Assembly: GCA_943704415.1 (NCBI GenBank)
Contig: CALSCO010001546.1
Location: 1 to 25,398, forward strand
Origin: Parvularia atlantis
Taxonomy: Eukaryota; Opisthokonta; Rotosphaerida
Reading direction: 5' to 3'
DNA length: 25,398 bases
In this document: piece by piece, positions 336 through 25,398 of the stretch
Layout: every line of letters begins with the position of its first letter
Numbering within the stretch: the stretch's first letter is position 1
Translations under genes and position numbers: made by a program
Notes under the pieces: model-generated
Told to the model about the DNA's origin: nothing
The model's database searches: none
The model's input: only the letters and a program-made list of their open reading frames with translations

Positions 336-1108
336 GATGGTGAGCTGTCAGGAAACTCAGTCCCCGCTCTCCGACGCGCCCGCTGCGCTGCGCCCCCACC
401 CGGCCACGCCCGCGCACCGCACGCACCGCGCATACGCACGGGTGGATGGATGGACGGATGGATGGGTATTGGGGAGGGGAGGCCGCGCAAAGTGGCACGC
501 TGAGGCCGTCGCTGAACACACGCGCGCGCGCTCGCGCCCGAATTCGGCAGACGCAGAAGCGCCGCAACGCGGGTCGCGCAAAGCACGGCCGCGGACACGT
601 CAAGCCCGTGCGCTGCTCGAACTGCGCGCGCTGCGTGCCCAAGGACAAGGCCGTGAAGCGGTGCGGCGGGCGGCGCGCTGGCTGCCGCGCGGCGCGCTGA
701 CGCAGCGCGCAGCTTCCTGGTGCGCAACATGGTCGAGCAGGCGGCCATCCGCGACATTGCCGAGGCGTCGGTGCGCGGCCGCTGCACGCAGGGTTCCTGC
801 GCACGCAGCGCTGACGTACGCACGCGCGTTCAGGCGTACGAGTCGTACGCGCTGCCGAAGCTCTACATCAAGATGCAGTACTGCATCTCGTGCGCGATCC
901 ACTCGCACATCGTGCGCGTCCGGTCGGCCGCCGACCGCCGCAACCGCGACCCGCCACCACGCTTCCGCATCAACAAGGTGCGCGCTTGCGTGCGCGTGAC
1001 AACGATGGCCATTGACGAAGCTGCTTCGTGCTCCAGGACGGCAAGAAGGTCAACCCGGCCGCGCAGGCCGGCGGCGCCGGGGCCGCTGCCGCTGCTGCCA
1101 AGAAGTGA
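336..1108 (+). CDS. RPS26: 40S ribosomal protein S26 (eS26)
   Basis: Structural component of the small cytosolic ribosomal subunit near the mRNA exit channel. Five exons: 336-338, 551-660, 713-770, 834-977 and 1037-1108, all phases closing to 128 codons before the stop. Exon 1 is just the ATG, followed at once by a 212-bp intron (GTGAGC...CAG), an arrangement common in ribosomal protein genes. The protein begins [17 protein letters not shown] and carries [14 protein letters not shown]. Zinc-ligand cysteines fall at residues 23, 26, 74 and 77, matching the family numbering. Then come the YCISCAIHS segment, PPPRFR and an Ala/Gly-rich tail ending AAAKK. Introns 2-4 are 51-63 bp with GTGCG donors and CTGAC/GTGAC branch-like motifs. 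Alignment to known S26 is nearly continuous, so identity is very secure; only the ATG-only first exon is inferred. Confidence 0.95.
443..466. repeat. (GGAT)n tetranucleotide tract in RPS26 intron 1
   Basis: About five units of GGAT with one GGAC interruption lie inside the first RPS26 intron. It is ordinary low-complexity sequence with no function visible. Confidence 0.7.
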
Positions 1109-3206: not shown

Positions 3207-6200
3207 TCAAGAAGGTGCGTCGTCCGGCGCCACGGGCATCGGCAGCGCCACGCCGGCCGCCGCGGGCATCGCCCCGTTCGACGAAGACCGGTGCCCGTCG
3301 CGCACGCGCTTGATGACGGCCGACGCGGGCCGCGACGACGACGACGACGGCGAGCCCGCGCCAGACTCGCGCCACGCGGTCACCGTCTCCGGATCCGAGC
3401 TGAAGCGCTGCACGGGCATGAGCTGCTTGCCGGCGCTGCCGCCGCTGCTGCCGGCCGCTCCGCTGCCGCTGGCGCTGGCGCTGGCGCTGGCGCTGCCGCT
3501 GCCGCTCAGCCGCGCGGTCGATGCCGAGCGCCGCCGCGTTGTTGCCGCAGCCGTCACCCGTCCCGAGCTCGTCGCGTCTGGCGTCACGCTCCCGAGCCCG
3601 CTGTCCGGCACGGGCGACACGCGCGCCGTGCCCGAAGGCGTGCCGGGCTGCTGCCGCGTCTTGGACACCTTGCGCGACGGTGGCGGCGTGACCGAGGGCG
3701 ACGCGTCGGGTTGCGCCTGCACGCCCGCGGTCGCGTCGAGGACCGGCATCGAGCTCACGGGCGCCGGCAGGGCCAGCGCGACCGGGAGCGACGGCAACGG
3801 CGACGCCACGACAGGTAGCGAGTTGTGCCGCTCGCGGAAGGTCTTCTTGCCGCTGCTCGTGCGCTTGACCATGCCGCCCTCGCTCGCCTCGGCCGTCTCC
3901 ACGGGCGCCGCACCGGCCTCGTCCGCCGCCGGCCCGAGCTCGGTCGACAGCCGGCTCACGCGCGACTTGCTCGGCGCACGCAGCCGCCCGCGCGGCGACA
4001 GCACGGCGCTGCCCGGCTCGGACGTGTTCGCAGGGGGCGCGGCCACAGCGAGCTCGCCGCTGCTGCTCTCGCTCGTCACGGCGGCAGTAGCCGCGGCCAC
4101 GGCGGCACTCACGCTCGGAGGCGGCGCCGTCGACCGCTTGCTGCGCCGGCGCGCCAGAAGCGTCTGCGGCGGGCCGGTTGCCGCGCCGCTCTCGCCCTCG
4201 CCCGCGGTCACCGGCGGCACGAGCGGCAGCTTGAGCTCGGTCGGGACGGTCGGGATCGACGCGGCCGCCAGCATGCCCTTGGAAATGCGCTTGGTCAGCC
4301 GGCGCGGCGACGCCTCGACGGCCAGCGGCTCGAGCGACGCGGGCAGGCTCCCAAGCGGCGAGGGCCGGGTCGTGCGCGAGCTCCACGACGGCGCGCGCTC
4401 CATCGGCGCCACCTCGCCGCCGCTCGCCGACCGGTCGTGCGACGGCGACGTGAGCGCGGGCGAGGCCGAGCGCGGCGAGGCGGACCGCACGAGGGGGCTG
4501 CTGCTCGACGACGACGACGAGCGCTGAAGTGGCCGCTCAAAGCTGCTCCCCTCCGGCACCGACGCGAGCGCGCCCTCGCCGCCGGGAGACGCCGGCACCG
4601 TGATCAGCACGCTCTTGGACGACCGCCGCGTGAGCGTCATCCGGCCGCGCGGCGAAGTGAGTGGGGCCGCGCCCAGCGGTGTCAGCGGCTGCACCGCCAG
4701 CACCGCGCCCGTGCCCTCGCCGTCCTCGCGCTCTTCAAAAACCACCGTCTCCTCGGTGCGTCGGCTGCGGCTCTCGGTCGTGCGTGTGAGCATCATGCCG
4801 ACCTCAGCTTGCGCCGCCGCGTCGCCCGACGCCGGCGTGCGGAACTCGACCAAGGGCATCGACACCGACTTGGCGTGCATCGGCAGCGCCGTCGACAGCC
4901 GCTTGCTCGCGAGCGACTGCGACCGCTCCGACACACCCAACGACGGCAGCACGCTTGCGGAGAAGTCGCCCGACACACGCGCCATTGCGCCGCCCTGCCG
5001 ACGCTGCATCGCAGGCGACTGCCGCTTGCCACGCCCCAGCGGCGACGGCGGCACAGGGGACCCGCCCGTAAACGGCGTCTCGAGCGCGTCGCTGCTGCTC
5101 CGGCTGCTGCCGACGCTCGCGGGCGCCGCCACGGCCGCCGGCGCGGTGACCATCGGCGCGGTGCGGCGTTGCACCTCGAGCTCTGCCTCTGACGGGTCCA
5201 ACTCCGGCAGCGCATGCAGCGAGCTCGGCAGCGGCGTGCCCGAGGGCGATTTGTCCTTGGCGGCCGTGTCCAACGTCCGGCTCCCGCGCGACAGCTGGCC
5301 CGTGTGTAGCACGAGGTCGCTCAGGCCGATGCCGTCCGGGCTGGGCTCGCCCCCGCCGCCGTTCTCGGCGCGGCGCATTGGGCTCATCGCGGCAGCCCCG
5401 GGCGGCGCGAGCTTGCCGCCGATGGTCGTGTGGCCGAGCGCGGCCGTCGGCTTCGACCCACTGCTGCCGCTGCTCATGCTGTCCTGCGACGACGACGCCT
5501 GCAGCACGCGCGTGGCTGCCACGGCCGCAGCCATCGGGCCCTCGGCGCGGACCGAGTCGTGGCGCGCGAGCGACGGCACACCCCTGCGGCGCGCATGAAC
5601 TTCAGCCGCCCTGCGCCGCCGGAACACGCGCAAGCGGCACGCACGAGCGCTCGTCGGCCTCGCTCAGCTCGACGAACGGGTGCTTGAGCAGCACTTCGAC
5701 GTCAGGGCGGTCAGACGGGTTGCTGCGCGGCGCGAGACGCGCGTCAGCTCGCTTAGCACTTCACAGTGAACGCGCACATGAACAGGCATAGCTTGAGAAA
5801 GTCCTGCGCCGCACTCGACAGCCACGACGGCGCCTTGGGCGGCTCGCGCGCGTTGGCGATGTGAAAGATGGCCGCGATCTCCTGCGAGAAGTGGTTCCAT
5901 GGCGGCTTGCCCGTGGCCATCTCAATGATGGTGCAGCCCACGGACCAGATGTCGGCCGACCTGCGAGCCACGCGCGCGTGTGAGTGAGCCTCGTGCTCTG
6001 CCCGCTGCCCGCACGCCGCAACGCACTTGCCAAAGCTCAGCCGCTTGATCACCTCCGGCGCCATCCAGTACGGCGTCCCGGCCATCTCGACGCGGTTGCC
6101 GTCGCCCGAGTGGTGGTTGACGCCTGCTCGCGCGCGCGTCAGCTCACGCATCGCACTCGCACGCACGCTCGCGCACGCACCCGCCAGGATCTTGGACGCC

Positions 6201-9200
6201 ATGCCAAAGTCGGCCAGCTTGACCACGCCGGTCGTGTCCACGAGGATGTTGGCGCCCTTGATGTCTCGGTGGATCAGGCCGTTCGCGTGCAGGTAGCGCA
6301 GGCCCGCGAGCACTTGGCGGATGTAGACGCGGATCAGTTTCTGCGCAGCGCGCATGGGCCGCGCCGCCGCTGCGGGTCAGCATGTGCGTCCGTGGCGTGG
6401 GGCATTTTTTTTTCCGTCCTGCGCGCGCACCTCATCAAAGCTGCCAAACTTGGTGAGGAGCGCGTGGATCGAGCCGCCCGGCACAAACCTGAGCAAGCGC
6501 GCGCACGCGTGAGCAAAAAGGGCAAGCGGCAGCGCGGTGAACGCACTCGAGGAACACGTTCGTTACGTCGCCTTCGTGTTCCATGCCAATGTACTCGACG
6601 ATGTTGGGGTGGTGCAGCCCGCGCAGGACCTCCATCTCCTTCATCAGCGCGAGCACGCGCCCCTTGATGTTGCTGTCGCTCCCGCGCTCGTGCTCGACCT
6701 GCTTCACCGCCATGAGCCGGCCCGTGTCCACGTTCAGTCCCAGGTAGACGTGGCCGGTCGAGCCGGCGCCGATGAGCTCGCCCTGGATCCATTTGATCTT
6801 GGTAACGATCATGCTGTTGCGCGCCGTTGACGCGCGCTTGTCGCCCGAGCCCACGCGCGTCTTGGCTGTGGCCGTGCTCGCCTGCTCGGTGATGTACATG
6901 CGCAGGTTGGCCTTCTGGTCGTACTGCTCGGCGCCGCGCATGAGACCGTTCGCCTGTGTGCGCGTGTGCAGACACCGCACCGTCAGGAACGCCTCCTCGA
7001 GGTCGCGCTGGTGCCGCAGGAAGATCAGGTCGAGCTCCTCGCTGTCGACGTCTGCGCGGCGGCAGGTGCGAGCGTCAGCGTCGTGTCGGCCGCGCAATGC
7101 CGCCCTGCACCACGCACACGACACGACGCAGGGGTCCTTGATGTCAAACTCGGCCATGAGAAAGTCCTGGCGTGGCGCGTTGTCAGCATACGCACGGTGA
7201 TCGTCGCTCGCACGCAGCGCCGCACCGTGAGCGCCTGCAGCGAGATGTTGCGCGTCACGCACAGGCGCTTGGACACGTTCTTGTGGCTGCACTTGAAGTG
7301 GATCTGCGCGCGCGTGCTCTGTGATCAGGCCCGCACGCCGCACAGGCACGCGGCGCACCTTGCCGTCCGGGCGGTACTTGGCCAGCTCCTCGCCCACGTG
7401 TTTGATGCCCTGGAGCCACGTCTTCATCTGCGACTCTGTCTGGGCCTGCAGCACGATCGTCCTGACGCGCGGCCGCGTGTCAGCCGCGGACCAGCGCCAC
7501 ACGCTGCCCGCAACGTACTTGTACGCGCCGACGACCTCGAAACACCACAGCTTCTCCGGCACGTTGAGCACACTGACCTTGACGTTGGACAGGTTGGCGG
7601 CAAACTCGAGCGGGCCCTCCTGCCGGGTGCGCACACGGGTCAGGCCCGCACGGCCAGCGCGCGCGCGCGCGGCTGCTGCGCGCACCGCCTGCTTGTGCCG
7701 ATACATGAGCAGGCCGTCCTTGATCACAAAGTAGCGCTTGGCCCACTGCACCCGCCCGAACGCGGCCGTGATGCGCTTGTTCAGGAACCCGCTCAGGCCC
7801 TCCGACACGATCCCGCGCACGCCCGTCAGACGCAGCGCCGGCCGCGCCGTCCCGAAGCTGTTGGAGCTGTCGGAGCGGTCGCTGCGCGATAGCTGCGCCG
7901 GGTCGTCGACCACGGGCGACAGCGACTTCTCAAAGTCGCGGCTCTGCGCGATCGAGCTGGCGGCGCTGTCGGCCGAGTTGCGGCGCTGCGAAACGCGACT
8001 GCCCGCCGCCACGTGCGCGGTCGACCCGACCTTGAAGTCGTTTGCGTACAGCTCCTCGATTTGGCGCTTGATCGACTCACGGCGCTTCTTTAGTGGAGTG
8101 CGGTGAGGCGCGGCGTGCGTCAGACGATGCCGGCGTGGCGGCGCAACCGCGTCAGCACGGCACCGCGTTGCCGTCGTCCGAGCGAGAGCGCTCGTGCGAG
8201 TCCAAGTCCTTGCTTGTCGAGCCGGGCGGGCGCGGCGGTGCCGCTCGCTGGTCGTCGCGCCGGGACTGCACACGGCCGAGCAGGTCCAGCAGCTTGCGGT
8301 CCTCGCCGATCGACGACGACGCCTGGTGCGCCGAGTGCATGACCGAGTAGTGGCCCTCGGGCGCGCTGCGGCGTTGGCGCGGCGTCTGCGGCCGCAGTGG
8401 GCGCTGTCAGCGTCGCTGTTCACGCATGCATGCATGCATGCAGCCACGCACGGGCGCGGTGCTGTCGCTGTCTTCGTCCACACGCTGCAGCGGCGGCGAG
8501 AGGCGGTTGGCGGCCGTGGTGGAGCGCGGCGTGATTGGGCTTGTGCCGACGTCGCGCGGCGTGACGGGCGGGCGAAGCGTGGCGCTGGCCGAGGCCTCAC
8601 GCGGCGTGATCGCGGGCGTGGCCGTGCTGGGCGTGACGGGCCGCTCAAACATGGAGGCGACGTGCACGCGTGACGTCGGCGCTGCGACTGTGTTGCCGCG
8701 GCCGAGCCGCGCGAGCTTGGACATGAACGAGCTCTGCTGCTGATGATGATGTTGGTGCAGCTGCGCCTGCGTGCGGTGGTCCTCGAGGCCACCACGCAGC
8801 TGCGTGCAGCGCGCGGCTCAGAGGAGCACGCCAGCGATGCGGCAGCCATACCGAGTTGTTGGATAGCATCGTGAGCATAAACATGTCGCGGCGCTGCTCC
8901 GGCGTGAGCTCAACGTCGTCAAAGCCGTCATCGGACGCGCCCGCGCCGTGCACCTGGCGGGCGCCGATCGTGAGGCGGGTGCGCAGGGCACACGTGCGCG
9001 AGACACGCACGCGGGACGGGTCGCTCGGCGTGCGGCGGAACTGGCGCGCCTCTACAAACTCGTCGTACTTCTCGAGCAGCTCACTTGCAAACTCGAGGTT
9101 GTTGCGCGTCGCGTCCAGCGATGTCGACGTGATCTTTTTCTTGGGCGTGTTCTTGGGCGTGCTCGTGTCGGAACGCGAGCGCGAGCGGGCTGGACTAGGT

Positions 9201-10615: not shown

Positions 10616-13600
10616 ATGTGGGGACGGTGCGGTCGCCGCCTCCGACTGCGCTCTCGGCCGGCCTCACGCGACGACGGCGGCACGCCCAGGCGCGACACCG
10701 CCGGGCTCGACGACGACGACGAGCGGCGCTCCCAGATGGCGCAGCGCGAGCGCGAGTTTGAGCAGCAGCGCCGGATGCGCGAGCGCGAGGTGTGATGCGA
10801 TGTTGGCTCGATGCGGCGGCTCAATGACGCGCGGCGCCAGGCGGATGTGCGCCCGCAGTGGCGTAGCGGGCCGCCCGTGCCGGCGCTGTACGCCGGCGGA
10901 TCACCGCAGCGCGCGCGCTTCAACGTGCCACCTGGCGGGCCGCCGTTCGGCATCGCGCGCCCGGGCTTTGGACGGCCGGTACACGCGCGCCAATGCCTTC
11001 CGGTCGCGCGAGGGCACTGACTGACGCGCGGCCCGCGCCACAGCCGCCGCCGTATGACCGCCGCGACGAGCCGCCGTGGCGTGGTGACTACGGCCTGCCG
11101 CCGGCGGGTCGTGCGCGCGACTTTGCATACGACCGCCGCGACCTGCCGCCCGCGCCGTACGACCGCCGTGAGCCCGGGCCGTCGATGCCGCACTTGCTGC
11201 GCCCGGCCGACATCGACCGCCGCGACCACGCCGGCTACGACCGCCGCGAAACGCTGCCGCCGCCGCCCGGGCCAGACGAGCGCCGGCGCGAGGGGATGGG
11301 CGCGATGCGCGAGGGCGACCGCGGGCGCTCGCTGTTTGACCGCGACCGTGAACGCGACCGTGAACGCGACCGTGACCGTGACCGTGACCGTGACCGTGAC
11401 CGCCTGCGCGAGGTGCCGGACATGGACGTGCCGCACGAACGCCCCAGGTGCGCGTGGTCACAGCAGCATACTGCACACGGCTCATGCGGCTGCGGCGCAG
11501 CCCCTCCAGACTGCCACTGTGGGACCGCAGCCGCCCGGCCGGCCCGCCGATGGGTCGAGCGCGCACGTACGACACCGACTGGGATCGTCCGCCGGAGCGG
11601 CAGGTGCGCTTGTGCACGAGCAGAGAACTGACGGCTGAAGACTCATCGCGACCCACAGGGCATGCCGGAGTACATGTGGCGGCCGTCACTGGGCATGTCG
11701 GAGCCGCACCCGGGCCGCACGTCGCTGCGCGCCAACTTTGCTGACGTGCATGGGCGCGAGCGCTCGCCCTACGCCGAGGTGCCGTCGCGCGACCGTCGCA
11801 GCGCCTCACCGGACGGCGAGCCTGGTGCGCGCGACCAGTGTCTGCGACTGCACGCAGCCTGACCGCTGCGACGCGCAGAGTACCGCCGCGGATCGGCCTA
11901 CAACCCGGACGCCGACTCGCCGCCGAACGAGACGCGCGACCGGAGCTTCTCGCCCGAGCAGGCGCAACGGTCGTACTCGGGTGCGTCACGCCGGCCCATT
12001 GCAGGCCAGCGCAGCCTGACACGCCCGTGGCAGACATCGACGCGCCGCGCGCGATTGTGCAGATCGCGATGCAACCACAGTCGTCCACGCCCGACCGCGA
12101 GGCGTCTTCGCCGCAGCGACCGAGTGCCTTCGCCTCGGCGGGCTCACTCAAGCCGCGCGACCGCTACGACGGTGTGCACGCCGGTTGGAGGGGGGGGGCC
12201 TGCTTAGCATCGCGGCAGCAGAGGGCTCGGACGACGAGCGCCCGACGCCGCCCATGAGCGACAAGCCGGAGGAGGACGTCGGACCGTCCGCGCTGAGCGA
12301 GCGTACGTCGCGGTCGGCGCATGTCCTGCCTCTGACGTCTCGCCGTCGCTGCGCGCAGCTGCGCCAAAGGCCGACAGCTCGCCCACGCACCCGCCCGAGC
12401 CGACGCGACGGGTGCGCACGGCACACATGACGCGACCTGACGATCGGCTGACCTCGCGGTCGCTCGCAGTTCCCCACGCGCGAGGAGGTGTTGGACGGCA
12501 TCCGCAAGCTCGACGCCGAGATCGCGCGCATCCGCCGCCTCGTGGAGATGGTGCAGGCGAAGCGGCAGGCGGCCCTGGACGCGTGCGTCGCTGTGCTTGT
12601 GTGCGCCCGAGCGTGTCGCCAAGGTCTAACGCGCGCGCGTCGGCCGCAGCGAGAGCGCCGACGTCGAGCCGCAGGCCGGCGATGGCGGCGTGCCGCAGAG
12701 CGACGCGCAGCGCATCGTCAAAGAGAACATGCAGAAGGCCGTGCGGCTCAACAAGGCGATCGTGCGCGCGGGCGGCGTGCCCAAGGGCATGACCGAGACG
12801 CAGCTGAAGGAGCAGACGCCGCTGTGCGTCGTCGGTTACTCGCCGTCGCTGCTCGGCATGCTCACCCCCCGCGTGCGCTGCAGGTACCACAGCTGCGAGG
12901 AGATTCCGACGTACCAGGCCACGATCGACAACGACGACGGCATGCGCCCGCACGTCTTTGGCCTGCTGCAGGAGAAGCGCCAGCGCGTGGCCGAGAAGGC
13001 GCGCGAGCTCACGACCGTGTACAACGAGCTGGCTGAGGCTTGGAAACGCAAGCTCAAGCGGACCGAGGTGCGACACACCCGCTGTTGCACGCGCGCCCGC
13101 TCACCCGCTGCCGCCCCACAGCGCCGCCGACTAAACACCGAGACGCCGGCCGTGGCGGCGTCCGCAGCGGCGGCAGAGGCATCGCCCGTGATGGCGAGCG
13201 CGAGCATCAGTGCCGGGACTGCCTCCGAGGCCCTGTTGGTCTCGGTCTCACGGCGCTCGGGCCGGAGCCGCGGCGCTCCTAGCGACGCCGTGCGGTCCGA
13301 GGAGGAGATGCAGCAGATCCTGCTCAACCTGCTCGAGCAGGAGCGGTGTGCGCTCTTCTGCTTGGAGCGCGCGTGTGTGCTCACGTGTGCTGCAGCGAGA
13401 ACCCGGCCATGCGCTACGTGCGCACTCTCGCGACCGTCGCGCCGATGATCCTCGACGAGGCCGACCGCAACAAGCACTTTCTCAACGACAACGGTGCGAC
13501 CCGTGCCAAACGCGTGGCGCTCGCGGACGGCCAACGCGTGCCGCGCAGGGCTCGTCGAGGATCCGATGCAGGTGCACAAGGAGCAGGCTTTCGTCAACCC

Positions 13601-15289
13601 GTGGACGCAGGCCGAGAAGGTGCGCGCACGGCTGCGCAGACGGGAAACATGTAGCACTGACGGCCCTGACGCGTTACAGGATATCTTCTTGGACAAGTAC
13701 GTCAGCTTCCCCAAGAACTTCCGCCGGATCGCGTCATACCTCGAGAACAAGAGCACGGGCGACTGCGTGCTCTACTACTACCTCAACAAGTCGACGCTCA
13801 AGGTAAGCGCGCTGCACGCAGCAGGCGCCGTCCAGTGCTGACTCTCTCTCTCTCGCGCGCGCGCGCAGCTCAAGAAGCTCGTGCGCCAGGCCGGGCTGCG
13901 TCGGCGGCGCATCCGGCACATGGGCGTGATGCAGCGGCACGACGTCAGCGGCGGCGAGGGCGCGGCGGCGGCGACGATGGTCAGTGAGTCGTTCGCTGGC
14001 GGCGTGCAGATGGACGGCATCGCGCCACAGAACGCCTTCACGCCTGCCTCGTCCACGGCCGCAGCCTTGACCGCGTCGTCCGGGGCGGGCTCGGCGGGCT
14101 TCCATGCGCCGGAGCAAACCGACGCGCCGACGCGCTGGACGGGCGCAGAGCGCGAGGCTGTGCTCAAACTCATGTCGCGCTTCGGGATGGACTTTGTGCG
14201 CATCGCGGACGAGCTCGGGACCAAGACGCCTGCGCAGTGCCGCGCATTCTACACGTCGTACCGCCGGCGCATGCAGGCCGACAAGGTGCGCATCTCGCCC
14301 GCGCGCGCGTGCCGCAGCGCTTTGACGGTGCGTGCGCTCAACAGGACAAGAAGACCGCGTTGCAGGCGGGCGGTGCGGACGGGTCGACACCGACGCGTCC
14401 CGGTGAAGCTTCGTTGAGCGGCACGCCGATGCGCGTTTCGGTCAAGCCGCGCCGGCAGCCGTCCGTCTGGAGCGTGAACGAGAAGGACACGTTCATGAAG
14501 AACTTTGGGGCGGTCGGCAAGGACTGGGCGCGCATGTCGCGCCTCATGCCGACCAAGACGCCCAACCAGATCAAAAACTACTACCAGAACTACAAGACGC
14601 GGCTCAAGCTGGATCAGTTGCTGAGCGAGGCGCAGCGCAACGAGGCACCCGGCTCGGCCGACAGCACGACCGCCGCGCCCAGCAGCGCGACGGGCGACGC
14701 TGCGACGACTGCCGCTCCCGATGCTGCTGTTGCAGCCGACGGCGCGTCTTCCGGTCCCGACGACGCGGCTGTGCCGATGGAGACCGACGCGGGCAGTGCG
14801 ACCGACGCGCCTATGGCCGAGCACGCGCCCGCGGGTCGTCGACGCCGCTCCGAGGCTGGGCTGGAGGGCGAGGCCGGCGCCAAGCGCGTGCGTCGTGCTT
14901 CGCTCAAGCCGGTGTCGGGCGATGCGACGATTGAGGAGACCGCCCCGATGGCCGACACGGCCCCTGCTTCGACGGACCCCGCGCAGCCACTGCAGCCTGC
15001 GCAGCCGGACGGGGACGAGTCCGCGCGGCCGGCGGACGACGTCGAGGAGGGCAACGTGGATGTGGGCGACGACTCTCAGCCGCCCCCGGCCGTCTGGAAC
15101 GCAGCGCTCGCGCCGCCGACTAAGGTGGTTGAGGACGAGGACGGCGAGTCGGACGTGGACGTCGAGGACGGCAGCGAGCCGAGCCTCACCGGCAGCGAGC
15201 CGCCTGCGGCGCTCGCAGCCATCGACGCGGCACCGGCCGCTGCGACGACACCGGCTGCGCCGCAGGACGAAGCGACAGCACGCACATAG
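10616..15289 (+). CDS. N-CoR/SMRT-type corepressor with three SANT domains
   Basis: Nineteen exons close in phase to 1215 residues: 10616-10626, 10690-10789, 10841-10978, 11044-11447, 11501-11603, 11659-11824, 11879-11980, 12034-12171, 12219-12302, 12359-12411, 12470-12582, 12650-12823, 12884-13067, 13122-13345, 13396-13493, 13549-13619, 13680-13802, 13869-14285, 14345-15289. Family role: nuclear scaffold that activates a class I HDAC (HDAC3/Hos2) for repression. The N-terminus is disordered, with six DRR(D/E) motifs and an Arg-Asp run. A coiled coil starts at about 434 (FPTREEVLDGIRKLD). TPLYHSC...LTTVYNELAEAWKRKL matches the N-CoR segment before the DAD. DAD/SANT1 is about 666-762 (LVEDPMQVHKEQAFVNPWTQAEK; PKNFRRIASYLENKS; DCVLYYYL). 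SANT2 is about 849-901 and SANT3 about 941-992, followed by a 220-residue acidic tail. The most uncertain piece is the 11-nt first exon. Confidence 0.87.
11338..11401. repeat. 6-bp tandem repeat (GACCGT/GAACGC) coding Arg-Asp/Glu
   Basis: About ten 6-bp units in the corepressor gene encode alternating Asp-Arg and Glu-Arg dipeptides. Such RD/RE runs occur in RNA-binding and nuclear-speckle proteins; here the run lies in the disordered N-terminal half. Confidence 0.8.
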
Positions 15290-15334: not shown

Positions 15335-16116
15335 TCAGGAGAAAAACAGCGCCTCCAGCTGCTCGTAGCGGGTCGGCGCGGCCTTGGTCGTGCACTGGCG
15401 CCGTGCGATCTCGCGCTGCGCCTCGTCGATCTGTCGACGCGTCTCGTCGAGCGCGCGGCGCACTGGACGGCGAGTTAGCTCCACTAGCGCTGACGCACGG
15501 CGGCACAACGCACTTTCCGCCAGCCGCGCGGTGTAGAAGCGCTGGCGCGCGCCGTCGTCGTCCGCCGCGGCCGCGAGGTTGTTGGAGACGTCTGCGGGCG
15601 TGCGGCTGAGCCACAACAGCGCAAAGCGCAGCGACAGCGCCGCACCGGCCAGCGCGACATTGGTTTGCGCCACGACCTCGCCCTGCCGCGCGCGTAGCAG
15701 CTCGCACTCGGCGAGCGCGCGGTCGATGTCGCGCTGCATCGCCGAGAGATCGCTTCGCACGCGCGTGCGACCATCAGCTGCCGCTCTGCCGCTGTTCGTG
15801 CGCACACCGCTCATGCTCGGCCGCGCGGTCACGAGCCGCGCCCGCGTCCTGCTCGCCCTGCCGCAGCGCCGCCTGCAGCGCGCGCAGCTGCTCGAGTAGC
15901 GGCTGCAGCTGCGCGGCCGCTTGGCGCACTAAATCGAAGCCCTGCAGCGCGCGGTACCTGCGCCCCGCACGCCTCAGCCAGCGCTTCCCACAGGACATGC
16001 GTTCGCACAACGCACTTGCTCTCCAGCACCAGCTCGAGCTCGCGCACGCGCTGCTGCGCCGCGGCGGCCTCGGCACGTCGCGCGGCCTCGGCCGTAACGG
16101 TCGAGGTCGCCGCCAT
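15335..16116 (-). CDS. Coiled-coil protein of unknown function
   Basis: Three exons, 16116-16016, 15957-15808 and 15752-15335, close in phase to 222 residues. Intron 1 is 58 bp (GTGCGT...GCGCAG). Intron 2 is 55 bp with a GTGTGC donor, a CTGATG branch-like motif and an unusual CGAAG acceptor, the least certain junction. The protein is Ala/Arg/Glu/Leu-rich with heptad-like stretches (RVRELELVLESK; LQPLLEQLRALQAALRQGE; RDIDRALAECELLRARQGEVV; RRALDETRRQIDEAQREIA). A short hydrophobic segment, LSLRFALLWLS, is too short and polar for a sure membrane span. No signal peptide was seen, and the protein ends EQLEALFFS. The size and coiled coils would suit a structural subunit of a larger complex, but no family was recognised. 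The stop is 45 bp from the convergent corepressor stop, and the start is 30 bp from the uL24m start. Confidence 0.6.
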
Positions 16117-16146
16117 GCGCTGTCACACTATCGACGCTCGACGCGA
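16117..16146. promoter_or_regulatory. 30-bp divergent spacer between coiled-coil gene and uL24m gene
   Basis: The two ATGs are 30 bp apart on opposite strands, around TCACACTATCGACG. No recognisable element fits. Promoters or transcription starts must lie within the neighbouring first exons, or the two genes share one nucleosome-free site. Confidence 0.45.
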
Positions 16147-16818
16147 ATGTCGTTCGCGCAGGCTGTGCAGCGGCGCCTGCGCAAGGGCCTGCCCGAGGCG
16201 CTGCGCCTGCCGCACTGGAACATCGTCCGCGGCGACAAGGTGCAGGTGATGAGCGGGCGCGACAAGGGCAAGCAAGGCGAGGTCGTCAAGGTCCAGCGCA
16301 AGCTCAACCGCGTCTTTGTCACCGGCGTCAAGCTCGTCAAGAAACACGTGCCCAGCACCGACGCGCGCAAGGGCGGCATCTTCCAGATCGAGTCGTCTGT
16401 GCACGTCTCGCGCCTCGCGCTGCTGGACCCGTCCGACGAGTGCGTTGGCGCGGCGCGCGACCGCCACGTGCCGCTCCAGCACACTCTTTTTCTCCTCGCT
16501 CACGTTGTGCGCCCGCAGCAAGCCGACCAAGGTCACGCGCCGCTACATCCAGATCGGCGACGACATCCAGTCCGTGCGCGTCTCGAAGCGGACGGGGCTC
16601 GTCGTCCCCAAGTCGGCCGAGCTGACCCAGCGAAAGACGCGCAAGGGTGCGGTACCGCTCTTCGCCCGGCCGCCGCGCCTGACGCATCGCGCGCCCGCAC
16701 AGACGGGCCCAAGGACACGCCGCCCGCAAGCGTCTTCGGCACGTACACGCCGAGCATGACACCGGCCGGGACGGTCAAGACCTCGCTCGCAGCCGCACTG
16801 GGAAAGCTTAGCGTTTGA
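16147..16818 (+). CDS. MRPL24: Mitochondrial large-subunit ribosomal protein uL24m
   Basis: Component of the mitochondrial ribosome 50S subunit that binds 23S-type rRNA early in assembly. Three exons, 16147-16439, 16519-16646 and 16703-16818, give 178 residues. Introns are 79 bp (GTGCGT...CGCAG) and 56 bp (GTGCGG...CTGACG...ACAG). Residues 25-60 are a KOW motif (NIVRGDKVQVMSGRDKGKQG). They are followed by VSRLALLDPSD^KPTKVTRRYI, which matches the mitochondrial family's LVDPxDxKPT segment, and RVSKRTGLVVPKS. The third junction recreates DGPKDT, a hallmark of MRPL24 rather than cytosolic uL24 (L26), which confirms the splice. The basic N-terminus (MSFAQAVQRRLRKGLPEALR) fits a mitochondrial presequence-like helix. 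The length is normal for a compact homologue, and the start is the only ATG in a short leader. Confidence 0.9.
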   Translation: MSFAQAVQRRLRKGLPEALRLPHWNIVRGDKVQVMSGRDKGKQGEVVKVQRKLNRVFVTGVKLVKKHVPSTDARKGGIFQIESSVHVSRLALLDPSDECVGAARDRHVPLQHTLFLLAHVVRPQQADQGHAPLHPDRRRHPVRARLEADGARRPQVGRADPAKDAQGCGTALRPAAAPDASRARTDGPKDTPPASVFGTYTPSMTPAGTVKTSLAAALGKLSV

Positions 16819-17367
16819 GTGGTAGCGGCGTGTACAGGGCGCGTGTATGCCAACGTGCATCGCGGCCGCCGAAGCGCCCGGAAGTTCCGTTTTCGTCTCA
16901 TCCGCGGCCTTTTTCCCGTCGCCGTGCGCCTCGTGCGTCGCGCGCGCCGTGCGCCGCCGCGATCCCCGCCGCGTGCCGTCTGCGCCACGCCCACCCGCAC
17001 GCGCCCAGCGGCATCGCGCCGTAATTCGCGCGCGCCAGCAGCCGCCGCGGCGCCTCGGAAAAGAGCCTATTCGGAATATTGGGCGCCTCGTGCGGCACGT
17101 TGCTGGCGGGCGAGCTGAGGCGGCGGCGGCGGCGGCACGGCCGTCACGCGCGCCACATGAGGCAGAGCACGCGCACCTGCGCGCACACGTGCAAGCACGG
17201 CGTGGCGCGGCGCGACGCTTTTTTTTTTCTCCCCACGTTTTTTTCTCGCCTCTTTTTCTGCACCTCGTGGCGGCCTGCCGCTCACGTGCGAACGACGTGC
17301 GGGGCGCCAGACCTAACGCGCGCGCCGTCCGTGCCGCAGGCGGGCCGCAGCGCACGGGATCGCAGCC
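16819..17367. promoter_or_regulatory. Promoter and leader region of the spectrin-type gene
   Basis: 549 bp between the uL24m stop and the spectrin ATG. It contains an AT-rich island at 17058-17082 around TATTCGGAATATTGG, with the inverted repeat TATTC-G-GAATA, and T-rich runs at 17219-17265. A likely 5'-UTR intron follows at 17286-17339: GTGCGA donor, CCTAACG branch motif, GCCGCAG acceptor, 28 nt before the ATG. A minus-strand open frame (17098-16898) containing NIPNRLFSEAPRRLL has no usable ATG and atypical AT-ending codons, so I do not call it a gene. Regulation is inferred. Confidence 0.45.
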
Positions 17368-20300
17368 ATGTCGTCGGCGCAGCTCGTGCGGCAGCAGTCC
17401 ACGCGCTCGTCCGTCATCCTCTCCGAGGCCGACGAGAAGGTCGCGCGCGGCAAGGAGGACCGCGCCGGCGTGCAGAAGAAGACGTTCACCAAGTGGGTCA
17501 ACTCGCACCTCAACAAGGTCGGCTACAAGGTCGAGGAGCTCTACACCGACATGCGCGACGGCCAGAACCTGATCAAGCTGCTCGAGGTCATCTCGGGCGA
17601 GACCCTCGCCAAGCCCGACAAGGGCCGCGGCCGCTTCGTGATGGTCGGCAACGTCAACAAGGGCCTCAAGTTCCTCAGGTGAGAGCGCGCGCGCACGTGC
17701 GCCCGCTCGCGCCCCGTGCTCAGCCCGATCGCCCCGCGCCCGCACCAGCACCAAGGTCACCCTGACCAACATCGGCGCCGAGGACATCACCGACGGCAAC
17801 CCCGTCCTCACGCTCGGCCTCATCTGGACCATCATCCTGCGCTTCCAGATCCAGGACATCTCGGTCGACGAGCTCTCGGCCAAGGACGCACTGCTCCTCT
17901 GGTGCCGCAAGAAGACCAAGGGCTACCACAACGTCAACGTGCGCAACGATCGCACCAAGCCGCAGCCGCGCGATCGCTCACGCTCGCTGCCCACTCGCAC
18001 AGGTCGAGAACTTCCACAAGTCGTTCAACGATGGCCTGGCCTTCGCCGCGCTCATCCACGCGCACCGCCCGGACCTCATCGACTTCCACTCGCTCGACCC
18101 GAGCAAGCCGGTGCGCCCGGCCGCACCCGCGCAACTGCACAGCCGCTCACTCGCGACACGCCGCAGCTTGACAACCTCAAGCTCGCGTTCGACGTTGCCG
18201 AGAACAAGCTCGGCATCACGTCCCTGCTCGACCCCGTCGACGTCGCCGTCGACCGCCCCGACGAGCGCTCGATCATGACCTATGTTGCCGCGCTCTACCA
18301 CTACTTTGCGTCCATGAAGAAGGGCGACGTGGCCGGCCAGCGTGTCGCCAACATCGTCGGCGAGCTCGCCGAGGTGCGATCGAGACAGCCACCCGTCAGC
18401 GGCAGGCGCTCGCTCACGCACACGCTCTGCAGATCACGCGCATGCAGAACGAGTACGAGCGCCTCGCCACCGAGCTCATGCAGTGGATCGAAGCCACAAT
18501 CGTCAAGCTCGACAATCGCAGCCTGCCCAACACCATCGACGGACTGCAGAACGAGCAGAAGGGCTTCCAGAAGTATCGCTCGGAGGAGAAGCCGCCCAAG
18601 TTCAAGGAGAAGGACAACCTCGAGGCCAAGTTCTTCGAGATCCAGGTGCGCACGCCTCGCCTGCGCCCCTCGACGCACTCACGCAATCTTACCAACACGC
18701 ACGTCAGACGCGCCTGCGCGCCCTCAACCGCGCCATGTACCGTCCACCGGAGGGCCGCATGATCGGCGACATCAGCAAGGCGTGGGCCATCCTCGAGACG
18801 GCCGAGCACGACCGCCAACAGGCGCTCGTTGAGGAGCTCAAGCGCCTCACAAAGCTAGAGCAGGTGCTGCTCCACGGCCCAACAGATGCACGCAGCTCAC
18901 GCCACACGCTCCCGCGCAGCTGGCCGGCCGCTTCGACAAGAAGGCCAAGATCCAGGAGGCCTGGCTCAGCAGCATGGAGAGCAACATCGACGCGCTCGAC
19001 GACGTGCGCGAGGTCATCGCGCTTCAGGTGTGCACGCCGCTGCAACCGCCGCACCTAATCTCACCGTCCCGTCTGCCAGGCCGCGCTCAAGAAGCAGGAG
19101 TCGCTTACGACCGACATCGCCGCGCACGAGGACCGCCTGCGCTCGGTGTCAATCATGGCTAAGGAGCTCGAGGCCGAGAACTACCGCGACAAAGACAAGG
19201 TGCGACCACCCTGCGCTGTATTGGGCCGATCTCACCCGCTTCGCACAGATCATCGAGCGCAACAACAAGATCTTCCAGCGCTGGACCGACCTCGAGGGCA
19301 AGGTCAAGCTCAAGCGCACCGAGCTTGAGGAGCTGCTCACTGTGCTCATCTTTGAGGTGCGCATCGCCGTGCCACGCCTGCCGTGCAATTACTCACGCTG
19401 TTGCACGGTGCAGCGCGCTGCTGGCGACCTGGTCGAGTCGCTCAAGGCGCACGACGGCGTGACATCGTCGGCTGAGACGGGCAAGGACGTCGTGAACGCC
19501 GAGGACCTGCTTCGCGAGCAGCGCGTGCGTGCAGACTTAAACGGCTCAGCAAACCGCATTGCTCACACTGCCGCCGCATCACACAGGACAAGAACATCGA
19601 AATCAACCTGCTCGCTGAGCGCGTAAAGCTGCTGCAGGAGCAGGCGGCATCAATCAGCGCGGGCAATGCCAACGGCGCGATCGCTGCTGGCCAGTACGAC
19701 GGCCCTGCGGACAACGCGTCGGCGGTGCTGGGCAAGTCGAAGGAGGTGCGGCGTCGTTGTCGTTGTGCGGCCTCGCATCGGTCCGTCTGACCACTGCGCA
19801 GATCGAGTCGATGTACGCCAAGCTGCGCGACGCGTCCGAGAAGCGCACGCAGGCGCTCGAGGCGGCCGTGCGCGGCCTCAAGACGCGCGAGAACCTCGAC
19901 ACGGAGCTGCAGTGGATCAAGGAGCGCGACGCCGCCGCGCGCTCGAAGGACTTTGGCCGCGACCAGAACGACACGCAACGCATGATCAAGAGCCATGCGA
20001 CGCTGCAGAGCACGATCGCGCTGCACGAGGAGGTGCGCGCCGCAGTGCCGCCCACCCCGTGCTCACGCCGCGCTCGCGCAACGCAGGTCGTCGTTGAGGT
20101 GCTGAGCGAGTCGGACGGCGCGACCGACGCCTCCGTCAAGGACAAGCGCGCGCAGCTCGATGCGGCGTGGAAGGCGCTCAAGGCCGCTGCTGACGAGCGC
20201 TCCAAGGGCCTGGCCGACGCGAGCAAGGCCATCCAGTTCTACGTGAGCGCGGACGAGGCCGAGGCGTTTGTGAAGGAGACCGAGGTGCGCGTGCGCACGC

Positions 20301-23300
20301 TGCCTGCCCGCCCGAGCGCACGCCTTGCTCACAATGTCGGCGTCGTTGTGATTCGATAGCCCGCCGTCGCCCTGACCGACGTCGGCGACAGCGAGGAGGC
20401 GTCGGCCGCGATGCTCAAGCGCCACGACAGCGTCGAGGCCGAGATCGAGTCGTACGAGTTCAACATCAAGGCTCTGCGCTCGCAGGCGCAACAACTGATC
20501 GACAGCAACCACCACGACAAGGCGCGCGTGTCGGCGCGCCTGGCCGAGATCGAGAGCCTGTGGTCGGGCCTGCGCACGCACACGGGCGCGCGCAAGAAGG
20601 CCCTGCGCGCGGCGCTGGACCTGCATCGGTTCATGCGCGAGAGCGCCGAGCTGTCGTCGTGGATCGCCGACCGCGAGCGCGAGGCGCGCGATCGCGACTT
20701 TGCGCTCGACCCCGAGTCGCTCGCGGCGCTCAAGCGCAAGCAGGACGCGCTCGAGCGCGACCTTGAGTCGAACGAGCCGCGGCTGAAGGTGCGCTCGCAC
20801 GTGTTGCCGTGACGATCTTCCGCTTACACACGCTCTCCGTGTGCAGGAGATCAACACGACCGCGGACCGGCTCACGGCCGAGAAGCACCCGCAGTCGGGC
20901 GAGGTGCAGGCGCGCAAGGCCGAGCTGAACGCGCGCTGGGACGCGCTGCAGAAGGAGGTGCGCTCGCTGCCAGCGAGGGTGCAGCGCGTTGACTAATGCA
21001 CGCGCACGGGCCAGGCCGACCTCAAGAGCCAGGCGATCGACGGCGCGGCCGGGGCGCAGGAGCTGACGAAGGAGATGGATGCGCTGATCGCGGCCATCCA
21101 CGACAAGGAGCCGGCGGCACGCAGCGACGACTTTGGCAAGGACCTGCCGTCGGTGCTGGTGCGCGTCGCCTCGCCTCGCCTCGCCTCGCACGCTGGAGAG
21201 GGCGGGCGGGCTGACAGACAGACGGCGCGACCGCTCGCAGGCGCTGCAGAAGAAGCACGAGGGCCTCGAGCGCGACGTCGCGGCGCTGGCCGACAAATCC
21301 AAGCAGCTGACGGCCGAGGTCAAGAAGGCCGCGGCCAACCCGGGCAGGTGCGCCAGGCGCGCCGATGCAGCGATGGTGCCTGACTCGCACGCGCGCTCGC
21401 CCCACCGCCAGCCCCGCCGAGCTGCTCAACAAGAAGAGCGACGACATGAACGGTGCGCTCAAGAACCTGCAGGAGCTGGTCGAGGCGCGCGGGCGCAAGC
21501 TGGACGAGGCCGCGGACCTGCAGAAGTTCAACAACGACCATGCCGACGCGGCGACCTTTGTCGGTGCGCGTGCGCGCTCTCGCGTGCTGCGGTGCAGCGA
21601 GCTGATCTGGCGCGTGCGTGCTCAGGCGACAAGGCGGCCGAGGTCGCGCGCACGGCCGTGCCGAGCGACGCTCTGTCGACGCAGGTGGCGATCAAGAAGC
21701 TCGAGGCTGAGAAGGGCGCGGTGGAGGTGCACGACGCCAAGATCAAGGCCGTGGACGAGTTTGGCAACAAGCTGATCGGGCAGAACCACTACGCCAAGGA
21801 CGATATTGGCCACAAGCTCGCGGCGCTCAAGGACGAGCGCGCGGCGCTGGGCAAGGCGCTGGACGACCGGCGCAAGGAGCTCGAGGACGCGTACGCGCTG
21901 CAAAAGTTCAACGGCGACCAGGCCGAGGTGCTGGCGTGGCTGGGCGACAAGAAGGGTGCGCGCGCTCGTTGTGGCCTCATGCGGTTTGGGCCGTGCTGAC
22001 GTGTTGCGCCGCTCGCGTGCGCGCGTGTGCGTGTGCGTGTGCAGCCACGGTGCAGGCGGGCGAGACGGCGGGCGATCTTGCGGGCGTGAGCAAGCAGCTC
22101 AAGAAGCACCAGGAGCTCAAGGCGGCGGTGGACGTGTACGACGAGCGCGTCAACGCAGTCAAGACGCAGGGCGCCAAGCTGGTGCAGGCGGGCCACCCGG
22201 CCAAGGCCGACATCGAGGGCAAGGTGGCGGCGGTGGTGGCGGAGCGCGTAGCCGTGGCGGCGGCGCTGGCGGCGCGCGAGAAGCAGCTGGAGGAGGCGCG
22301 CGATCTGGCCAAGTTCAACGAGGACGCGGCCGAGGCGTCGGCGTGGATGCACGGGCGCCGTGACGCGGCAGCGGGCGCGGAGCTGCCGGGTGACGTTGCG
22401 GGCGTGCAGGCGGCGCTGAAGAAGCACGCGGACGCGGAGGCGCAGGCGCGCACGCACGACCACAAGGTGGACGAGATCAAGAAGTTTGGCGACAAGCTCG
22501 TGGGCCAGGACCACAGCGCCAAGGATGCGATCGCGGCGCGGGTGGGCGAGCTCGGGGCGGACCAGGCGGCGCTGCACGACGCGCTGGCGGCGCGCAAGCA
22601 GCAGCTGGACGACCAGCTGGATCTGCTCAAGTTCGAGAGCGACCAGAAGGACGCGGTGAGCTGGCTGCACGACAAGAAGGAGCAGGTGGCCGGCGCCGAG
22701 GTGCCGACCGACGCGGCGGCGGTGGAGGCTGCGCAGCGCAAGCTCAAGGACCAGCGCACGGCGACGGCGGCGCACGACGAGCGCGTCAAGGCGGTGCAGG
22801 GCGCGGGCGAGGCGCTTGTGGCGCGCCAGCACCCGGCGTCGGAGCGCGTGCAGGGCAAGCTGGCCGAGCTCAAGGGCGAGCGCGAGGCGGTGGCTGCGGC
22901 GCTGGACGCGCGGCAGAAGCAGCTGGACGACGCGCTTGCGCTGCTGCAGTTCAACGCGGCGCACGGCGAGGCACTCGGGTGGCTGGACGAGATGAAGACG
23001 CTAATGGGGTCGAGCGAGGTGCCGAAGGACGTGGCCGGGGCGCAGGCGCTGCTGCGCGAGCACGCCGACCGCAAGGCCGCGATCGAGGCGTACGACGGGC
23101 AGATCCGCGCGGTGGAGGCGCAGGGCGAGAAGCTGATCGCGGCCGGACATCCCGCGTCGGCCGAGGTGCGCGCCAAGCTGGACCAGCTGGCGCGGCAGCG
23201 CGCCGAGGTGCAGGCGGCGTGGGACGCGCGGCAGGCGCAGCTGGCGGACGCGCTTGCGCTGCTGCGGTTCGAGGAGGCGCATCGCGACGCGGACGCGTTT

Positions 23301-25338
23301 GTGACCGACCGGCGCGAGGAGGTCGCCGCGGTGGAGATCCCGAAGGATGTGGCGGCGGCCGAGGCCGCGCTCAAGCACCTGAACGCGATCGCCGCGGCGG
23401 TGGCTGGACAGGGCCAGCAGCTGGACCAAGTGGGGACGCAGGGCCAGTCACTCGTGCAGGCGGGCCACCCGTCGTCTGACGCGGTCAAGGGCAAGGTCGA
23501 GGGCCTTGCGGCGAGCCGTGCGGCGCTGGACCAGGCGCTGGCCGAGCGGCAGAAGGCCGTGACGGACGCGCGTGACCAGCTCAAGTTCAACAACGACCAC
23601 CAGGAGGCGACCGACTTCCTGGCCGACAAGGCCGAGACGCTCAAGGGCATGGAGCAGCCCAAGGACGAGGCGGCGGCGCGGCTGCAGCTGAAGCAGCTAG
23701 ATGACCTGCGCAACGCGGTGGACGCGCACGACGACAAGATCAAGCAGGTCAAGGGCGAGGGCGAGGCGCTGATCGGCGCGGGCCACCCGAACAAGGGCGA
23801 GATCGAGGACAAGCTGAAGCACCTGGCCGACGACCGCGCCGCTTTTGCCGCGGGTGCGTGCTTCTTGTGCGCGGTGTGCTGTGCGTGTCTGACCGTGTAC
23901 GTCACGACCGCCGCGTGCGCGCGCAGCACTCGCCGCGAAGGAGCGCCAGATCCGCGAGGCGGTGGAGTTGATGGACTTCAACCGGGACGCGCAGGCGGCC
24001 GAGACGTTCCTGAAGGACAAGGAGGGCCAGCTAGCGCACGCACCCGCGACCGACTCTGTCGCGGCGGCCGAGGCGGCGCTGAAGAAGCATCAGCAGCTGC
24101 TGAGCGAGCTGTCGGTGGAGGCGGCGCGGATCAAGGCGCTCGAGGCCGACGCCGACAAGCTGATCAAGGCCGACCACCACGACAAGGCGGCAATCGACGC
24201 GCGGCGGCAGGACATCGTCAAGCGGTACGGCGCGCTCAACGACGCGGCTGCGCAGCGGCAGAAGGTGCGCGTGCGGGCTGTGTTGCTGCGCTTGACGGCT
24301 GACACGGTGCCGGCGGCCTGGGCGCCCCGCAGGAGCTGGAGGGCGCGCTCAAGCTGCAGCAGTTCCTGGCGGACGCGCAGGACTTTGAGGCGACGCTGAA
24401 GCGACAGCAGGGTGAGGTGCAGGACGAGTCGTTCAAGGACCCGTCGGCGTCGATGGAGGACAAGCGGCGCAAGCACGACGAGCTGCTGGCGGAGCTGGCG
24501 GCCAACGCGGTGCAGCTGGACAAGCTGCGCAAGCAAGCCAAGGAGCTGGCCGACACTGGCCACCCTGACGCGGCCAAGGCGCGCGCGCGGCTGGAGGAGC
24601 TCGAGCGGCAGGCCAAGGCGCTCGAGGAGGCTGCCAAGGTGCGTGTGACGGTCGGCCCGCTTCGGCGGCCGGGTGGTGGCTTACGCGTGGCGACATCACG
24701 CAGAACAAGAGCGAGGAGCTCAAGGCGGCGGGCAACATGAACGACTACTTCCGCGGGATTGAGCAGTTTGAGCGGTGGTTCCGCGAGGTCGAGGCCGCGC
24801 TGGCGGTGGAGGACCTGGGCAAGGACGTGGCGTCGGTGCAGACGCTGCGCAAGCGGCAGGCGCTGATCGAGGCGGACATCGCGGCGCACAAGCCGCAGGT
24901 CGAGTCGACGCTCAAGGCGGCGCAGGCGCTGGTGGACGCCAAGGTGCGGCGAGCATGCGCGGCTTGTGGGGTGCACTGACGCGGGTGTGTGGGTAGCACT
25001 TTGCCGCAGCCGAGATCGCGACCAAGAAGGACGCGCTGCGCGCACGGTTCGCCAAGCTGGAGGAGACGTCCAAGGCGCGGCGCGGCAAGCTCGACGCCGC
25101 GCTGAAAGTGCAGGAGTTGTACCGGGACGTGAACGAGGAGGGCAACTACATCGCGTTCAAGCTGGTGCAGGCGTCGTCGAGCGACTACGGCAAGGACCCG
25201 CTGTCGAACGAGAAGCTGGTGGCCAAGCACGCGACGCTGGAGGACGAGCTCGCGTCGCACGAGAAGGACGTGCTGGACGCGGTTGACGCGCGCGGCAAGG
25301 CGCTTGTGGCGGAGGTGACGCTCGTCGGGGGACTTTGA
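17368..25338 (+). CDS. Spectrin/alpha-actinin-type protein: two CH domains plus long 106-residue repeat rod
   Basis: Actin-crosslinking cortical scaffold by family. Twenty-four exons close in phase: 17368-17678, 17749-17938, 18003-18110, 18167-18373, 18433-18645, 18708-18863, 18920-19027, 19080-19199, 19249-19356, 19414-19524, 19587-19745, 19802-20032, 20087-20284, 20360-20788, 20847-20957, 21015-21158, 21241-21347, 21412-21563, 21626-21955, 22045-23853, 23927-24264, 24333-24638, 24704-24943, 24997 on. CH1 is about residues 32-140 (FTKWVNSHL; DLRDG-like MRDGQNLIKLLEVIS), CH2 about 150-270 (DALLLWCRKKT; FNDGLAFAALIHAHRPDLID; RPDERSIMTYVAALYHYF). RPPEGRMIGDISKAW and the following repeat align with alpha-actinin rod repeats 1-2. 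Roughly 18 spectrin repeats follow; those coded by 21780-23800 are exactly 106 residues apart (GHP anchor). In-frame TGA at 25336, but a donor at 25315 falls exactly at a repeat boundary, so the gene probably continues. EF-hands or a PH domain, if any, would lie outside. Confidence 0.9.
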
Positions 25339-25398
25339 ATGCAGCAGCAGAGGCAACATGCTTGGAAATCTTATGTGTGGCTGTACTCTGATTCTCTT
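25339..25398. other. AT-richer right edge
   Basis: The last 60 bp are clearly AT-richer than the rest of the window (for example GGAAATCTTATGTG). They are either 3' UTR/intergenic sequence after the TGA at 25336 or part of an unfinished intron starting at 25315, with CTCTGAT near the end as a possible branch site. Sequence to the right is needed to decide. Confidence 0.5.

Follow-up and report, generated by a model that had tools for sequence, protein, structure and literature searches.

A gene on contig CALSCO010001546.1, at 17368–25326 on the plus strand, is probably the large N-terminal part of a beta-type spectrin whose source is a eukaryote other than an animal, a fungus being the best candidate. 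Spectrin is an elongated, spring-like component of the cytoskeleton of animals, and in the protein encoded here the rod appears to have its repeats in the order R1–R12 of animal beta-spectrin, with the R8 type present as seven tandem copies. The stretch analysed, called the window below, comprises 25,398 nucleotides (nt), and all features of the spectrin-like gene are on its plus strand.

A dynamic-programming splice model gives this gene 24 exons and 23 GT-AG introns of 45–89 nt, starting from the ATG at 17368. The visible product has 2,180 residues, and the frame is open to 25326, near the window end, so that the 3' side of the model is also open. In a second model, which covers the whole window, the introns are identical from 17679 onward and the frame runs to a stop at 25338; a short extra 5' exon in that model (17157–17266) is doubtful and was not adopted. 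Phase 0 is found in 18 of the 23 introns, with the splice borders of introns 9, 12, and 21 uncertain by some residues. Most donors read GTGCG, as in the gene for ribosomal protein eS26 on the same contig, both sets of introns having been modelled with a splice scoring that favours this motif. The relative synonymous codon usage of the gene correlates with that of the two largest neighbouring models (r 0.97 and 0.98), an agreement of limited weight, since r was 0.87 even for a spurious antisense model. As far as can be read from the DNA, the head and the rod are encoded by one gene in one continuous frame.

In residues 1–1061, Pfam matched CH (E-value 3e-48, two stretches) and Spectrin (2.7e-86, seven stretches), and in residues 1062–2180 Spectrin again (3.1e-172, 11 stretches); E-values this low exclude chance for the CH and spectrin-repeat content. 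Two weak CH-like families also matched, below their cut-offs. With an E-value threshold of 0.01, no EF-hand, PH, SH3, or GAS2 domain and no plakin region was matched in the visible 2,180 residues. A purpose-built profile, for which 15 human alphaII repeats served as the seed, gave the same count of repeats as the Pfam stretches, namely 18 (W1–W18). The borders of some divergent repeats were set by hand, among them those of the low-scoring W1 (5.2) and W3 (10.9), and W18 is truncated after helix B. A single-sequence AlphaFold2 model of W10–W12 (22290–23240, short by the last residue) predicts tandem three-helix bundles whose helices continue across the repeat borders (pLDDT, the predicted local distance difference test, 89.3; pTM, the predicted template modelling score, 0.72); its closest matches in the PDB are beta- and alpha-spectrin repeats.

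The head consists of tandem CH domains of the actin-binding type (residues 36–262, encoded at 17473–18343 with three introns). It is followed by W1 (18371–18860), which contains the segment YRPPEGRMIGDISKAW, and by W2 (18861–19326), the partners of beta-spectrin R1 and R2, respectively. The identity to pig beta-spectrin exceeds that to chicken alpha-actinin in the CH pair (63.7% versus 57.6%), in R1 (46.3% versus 41.5%), and in R2 (38.5% versus 32.4%): the margins are modest, and they all lie in one direction, so that by this measure the head, R1, and R2 are each nearer to beta-spectrin. Against PDB sequences, the N-terminal half scored 790 bits in five stretches with the beta-spectrin of entry 8iah, which we take to be the pig protein (best stretch 611 bits, residues 26–990 to 46–1017), 450 bits in total with chicken alpha-actinin (best stretch 442 bits, residues 36–499), and 436 bits in seven stretches with alpha-spectrin. 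The alpha-actinin match ends at residue 499–501, which is the end of repeat 2, and actinin-type repeats 3–4 do not follow. In a comparison limited to the head, a fragment of beta-III-spectrin scored 288 bits, one of MACF1 236, and dystrophin 189. Finally, in a tree of repeats in which those of actinin were not included, W1 joins beta R1 (100/100) and W2 joins beta R2 (99/94; here and for this tree below, bootstrap/Shimodaira–Hasegawa-like approximate likelihood-ratio test, SH-aLRT).

An earlier note on this DNA had described a tandem CH head and a spectrin-length rod in one frame, which both methods of counting bear out, the 18 repeats being two head repeats plus 16. Of the four Pfam families that it named, CH and Spectrin are found, and EF-hand and PH are absent from the visible part. 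It had called the head alpha-actinin-like; the tandem CH arrangement stands, and the affinity to actinin gives way to a slightly closer one to beta-spectrin.

The order of the rod was analysed with eight repeat types, defined from human alpha- and beta-spectrin repeats compared among themselves and without the window sequences. The human spectrins have a super-period of eight (the centred score at a shift of 8 is 1.82 for alpha and 1.33 for beta, other shifts from 1 to 12 giving 0.18 at most), and their preferred beta-to-alpha offsets are −12, −4, and +4. The type lists exclude alpha R1, alpha R17–R20, beta R1–R4, and beta R17. Against these lists, W5, W6, W7, W12, W15, W16, W17, and W18 match types 1–8 in order, and this order ranks first among 40,320 permutations, whether the scores are raw or centred. 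The first rank is kept with each of W8–W14 taken as type 4 (7/7), and equally when the references are restricted to alpha or to beta. As controls, 60 residue-shuffled repeat sets ranked from 893 to 39,380, and W8–W14 entered as an octad ranked 27,488. With alpha-only references, the single best type of W18 is 1 and not 8. Because W5–W18 carry the eight types in order, the rod is read as beta R1–R12 with a sevenfold R8 type: W5, W6, and W7 (20213–21502) are types 1, 2, and 3, as in beta R5–R7, and W15–W18 (23953–25326) are types 5, 6, 7, and 8, as in beta R9–R12, alpha R5–R8, or alpha R13–R16. The divergent W3 and W4 (19357–20212) were examined by block scores and fit beta R3–R4 (types 7 and 8) by their order only.

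The repeat tree (55 repeats, 106 columns) agrees with this in part. Single sets that include window repeats are formed by type 3 (94/88, with W7), type 4 (88/86), and type 7 (96/84, with W17), and W5 groups with beta R5, beta R13, and alpha R9 (95/87), in the type 1 set. When placed on the tree, the eight type labels need 10 changes, where 7 is the minimum; the mean for shuffled labels is 28.2, and none of 200 shuffles was as low. In the same tree, the reference repeat R1 of human alphaII-spectrin falls with type 6 (100/96) and not with type 1, a placement relevant to the point at which an ancestral rod would have been cut to give the alpha chain.

The amplified block comprises W8–W14 (21503–23952), seven copies of type 4, the type of beta R8, alpha R4, and alpha R12. 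The copies have a mean identity of 38.1% among themselves (21 pairs, 31–43%), compared to 23.1% with W5, W6, W7, W15, W16, and W17 (42 pairs, 33% at most), and in the tree all seven join beta R8, beta R16, alpha R4, and alpha R12 in the type 4 set. Most of the block lies in exon 20 (22045–23853, residues 1171–1774), which in the splice model runs for 1,809 nt without an intron, the median exon being 197 nt. Direct DNA repeats occur in the block at steps of 318 nt. One 142-nt pair (21813–21954 and 22856–22997) is 75% identical in DNA; with the intron left out, its members are spaced by three repeats, a hint that a block of three repeats was copied. W8–W14 is the only part of the rod that looks like a lineage-specific duplication. 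A search for relatives of exon 20 (22068–23850) in viral contigs gave nine pattern-matched stretches, none of which was confirmed by tblastn.

Several observations weigh against a beta-type spectrin with this order of repeats. The linker between CH1 and CH2 is without the six extra residues of pig beta-spectrin and has an actinin-like length. The PH domain, the ankyrin-binding R14–R15, and the half repeat 17 with the tetramer-forming parts would all lie past the window end. For W6, type 2 is ahead of type 3 by just 1.09 to 1.05, and in the tree this repeat adjoins the type 3 set (86/81), outside the type 2 set. W3 and W4 also lack a firm place in the tree, as do W6, W15, W16, and W18; types 2, 5, 6, and 8 are not single sets, nor is type 1 when alpha R1 is counted in. 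The centred scores of the block W3–W7 are 6.7 with beta R11–R15, 5.6 with alpha R7–R11, and 5.1 with beta R3–R7, these three blocks sharing one type phase; since these scores do not favour beta R3–R7, the assignment to beta R3–R12 rests on W1–W2 and on the order. The C-terminal half scores 489 bits with alpha-spectrin versus 275 bits with beta-spectrin. Lastly, support is low in a tree of eight-repeat units built to date the duplications of the super-unit: 66/67 with four rows, and 8/32 and 40/39 with five (SH-aLRT/bootstrap).

The higher alpha scores of the C-terminal half are explained by a slow evolution of alpha-spectrin. Across the eight-repeat unit, the window shares 33% identity with each of the alpha blocks and 26% with beta R5–R12; the alpha blocks are 47% identical to each other, and the branches of the window and of beta in the eight-repeat tree are equally long (1.08 and 1.07). 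An alpha-spectrin identity for the C-terminal half was set aside, as the rate effect accounts for the scores. A rival reading, which we consider unlikely, is that the gene encodes an unsplit spectrin of an ancestral type, in which a beta-type head and rod would continue into alpha-type repeats and EF-hands and which would pair with itself in an antiparallel fashion, like a giant alpha-actinin. Such a chain would have a C-terminal half nearer to alpha- than to beta-spectrin, as is found for W15–W18 both in raw scores (alpha R5–R8 590 and alpha R13–R16 565 versus beta R9–R12 374) and in centred ones (8.0 and 8.7 versus 5.2), although beta R5–R12 is itself nearer to the alpha blocks (32–33%) than to the window (26%), so that slow alpha evolution would suffice. 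A published scheme, in the available text of PMC9145010, has an ancestral CH-SR-EF spectrin (SR, spectrin repeat) that was later split in two. The gene probably extends beyond the window, and Pfam finds no EF-hand in the visible part; because the C-terminus lies beyond the window, the visible part of an unsplit chain would look no different. That a living unsplit spectrin exists in a fungus, with a beta-type head, one eight-repeat super-unit, and then alpha-type end repeats and EF-hands past the window, seems rather doubtful.

The fungal source is moderately likely, if weakly placed, and rests mainly on the eS26 gene (about 551–1108, plus strand), the spliced protein of which matches eS26 throughout and the three modelled introns of which all have GTGCG donors. 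Among 71 distinct PDB sequences, the three best matches of this protein (183.5, 180, and 178.5 bits) are presumably those of S. pombe, Neurospora, and Chaetomium, the next group, from 176.8 bits, being plants by the same assumption. The tail NKDGKKVNP is nearly identical in the three top-scoring fungal sequences. Other results make this identification weak: the identity of eS26 is 72.2% to S. pombe versus 68.7% to Arabidopsis, and in a tree of seven rows eS26 falls outside the four ascomycete rows (92/48, SH-aLRT/bootstrap) and is not firmly joined to any row, human and Arabidopsis included. A mitochondrial uL24m-like gene (about 15978–16818, plus strand; KOW and ribosomal_L24 matches) has best PDB hits that are presumably not fungal, and it is uninformative on placement. 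A tRNA scan of the window found none.

A beta-spectrin of the known kind from an animal or a choanoflagellate, with a local expansion of repeats, would have the types and the order seen here, and eS26 gives no firm placement of the source against it. However, the window has a GC content of about 70% and is eukaryotic in look, the introns are of 45–89 nt, and the best eS26 matches are fungal sequences; moreover, R1 and R2 are only 46% and 38% identical to those of pig beta-spectrin. In addition, the SH3 domain reported for choanoflagellate beta-spectrin in the available text of PMC9145010 is not in the visible part. We regard this explanation as quite unlikely; a non-animal source, on which the earlier note had made its argument conditional, is probable.

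How the gene ends is a further question. An in-frame TGA lies at 25336–25338, shortly past helix B of W18, and could mean that the chain ends there, with W18 as a half repeat like the R17 by which beta-spectrin pairs with alpha-spectrin, in a protein without a PH domain. Immediately before this TGA, however, is a phase-0 GTGACG at 25315, at repeat column 73, and the phase-0 intron of the preceding repeat is at column 74. This match in phase and column makes the stop probably intronic; the gene would then run off the window, and 25338, which had previously been given as its end, would not be the true one. In raw scores, W18 is also nearest to alpha R8 and R16 (type 8), beta R17 being outside the six best; centred scores put alpha R9 first and beta R17 fifth of the six listed. 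A chain ending at 25338 is therefore improbable. The candidate intron (25315–25398) is also suggested by composition: an abrupt low-GC tail occupies 25340–25398, the last 50 nt or so having 43% GC. This tail may be an intron, a 3' flank, or an assembly artefact; the last 84 nt gave no match to E. coli genomes.

It is very improbable that the gene is an alpha-actinin that reached a spectrin-like length by convergence, through an independent expansion of its rod, since the eight types in animal order would not be expected from the independent duplication of actinin repeats and the head, R1, and R2 are all nearer to beta-spectrin, if by modest margins, and this despite the short CH1–CH2 linker, the 442-bit stretch with alpha-actinin, and the repeat duplication that W8–W14 demonstrate in this very gene. 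The proposal that the protein is an intermediate from actinin to spectrin, an alpha-actinin with a rod expanded by duplication, is thus not upheld, given beta-type W1–W2 and a W5–W18 in the type order of beta R5–R12. The one-to-one clustering with beta-spectrin repeats, which was named as the opposite outcome, is largely what is found as regards W1–W2 and the type order, with several repeats not placed one-to-one in the tree.

The beta-type spectrin proposed here shares with animal beta-spectrin (SPTB, SPTBN1) the tandem CH head, R1, R2, and then, probably, types 7, 8, and 1–8, as in R3–R12; it differs from it in having the R8-type repeat seven times rather than once, in a source that is probably fungal, and, compared to the pig protein, in the linker mentioned above. 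W5–W18 match the blocks R1–R8 and R9–R16 of animal alpha-spectrin (SPTA1, SPTAN1), with raw scores above those for beta, but alpha-spectrin has neither a CH head nor beta-type R1–R2, and its SH3 domain is not in the visible part here. The likeness to alpha-actinin is confined to the CH head and the first two repeats; at least 18 repeats are present here, whereas alpha-actinin has four in animals and two in fungi (available text of PMC8329775).

In the available portion of PMC9145010, two choanoflagellates are the unicellular opisthokonts reported to have alpha- and beta-spectrin, and spectrin was not found outside opisthokonts except for one plant hit. The same portion describes fungal CH/spectrin-repeat/GAS2 proteins as intermediates, drawn from a base set that included three fungi, and the ancestral CH-SR-EF spectrin proposed there would have been split later. 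Compared by description only, these fungal proteins resemble the present one in combining CH and spectrin repeats and differ from it in GAS2, which is not in its visible part. An alpha-actinin of an anaerobic fungus has one Pfam spectrin repeat (available text of PMC5042518), and the accessible parts of PMC4265756 and PMC6784888 add nothing decisive. Among the titles and abstract openings listed in searches of an open-access library, none dealt with a fungal spectrin that has a long rod, which is no proof of absence, subscription papers not being covered.

The head of beta-spectrin binds F-actin, and its R1–R2 nucleate an antiparallel dimer. From analogy with this protein, we infer actin binding, dimerisation, and a location in the cell for the product of the gene: its CH head would bind F-actin, and W1–W2 would form the surface that nucleates an antiparallel dimer, as in beta-spectrin and alpha-actinin. 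At least 18 three-helix repeats, joined by continuous helices, would make a long flexible tether or crosslinker of cortical actin, in which the extra type-4 repeats would lengthen the rod and leave the actin- and dimer-binding end untouched.

Other genes of the window were seen in passing. At about 5600–8100 on the minus strand, there is a STE11/MEKK-like kinase in which PH and PB1 domains precede the kinase domain (Pfam Pkinase 2e-67, PH 1.4e-16, PB1 6.4e-06). To our knowledge, this combination is unusual, but the gene was modelled automatically and adjacent genes may have been fused in it. On the plus strand, at 10616–15289, three Myb/SANT stretches and a DUF7952 match occur in the first 890 of 1,068 modelled residues, a protein that we take to be in the style of the co-repressor NCoR/Snt1. 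At 1–303 on the minus strand, the start of a PX-domain-like gene leaves the window; its Pfam match is weak (0.00083) and does not reach the curated cut-off.

The bearing of this gene on the time at which spectrin arose, raised in the earlier note, stands if the source is a fungus: the long-rod spectrin and the eight-repeat super-unit would then predate the split between animals and fungi, and the origin of spectrin would appear to lie further back than that of animals and the lineages nearest to them. The block of seven R8-type repeats is a natural experiment in the lengthening of a spectrin rod. The C-terminus of the spectrin-like protein would tell whether alpha- and beta-spectrin derive from one chain, and an unsplit chain in a fungus would date the building of the rod to before the divergence of the two kingdoms and make the alpha and beta genes each one half of a single ancestral chain.

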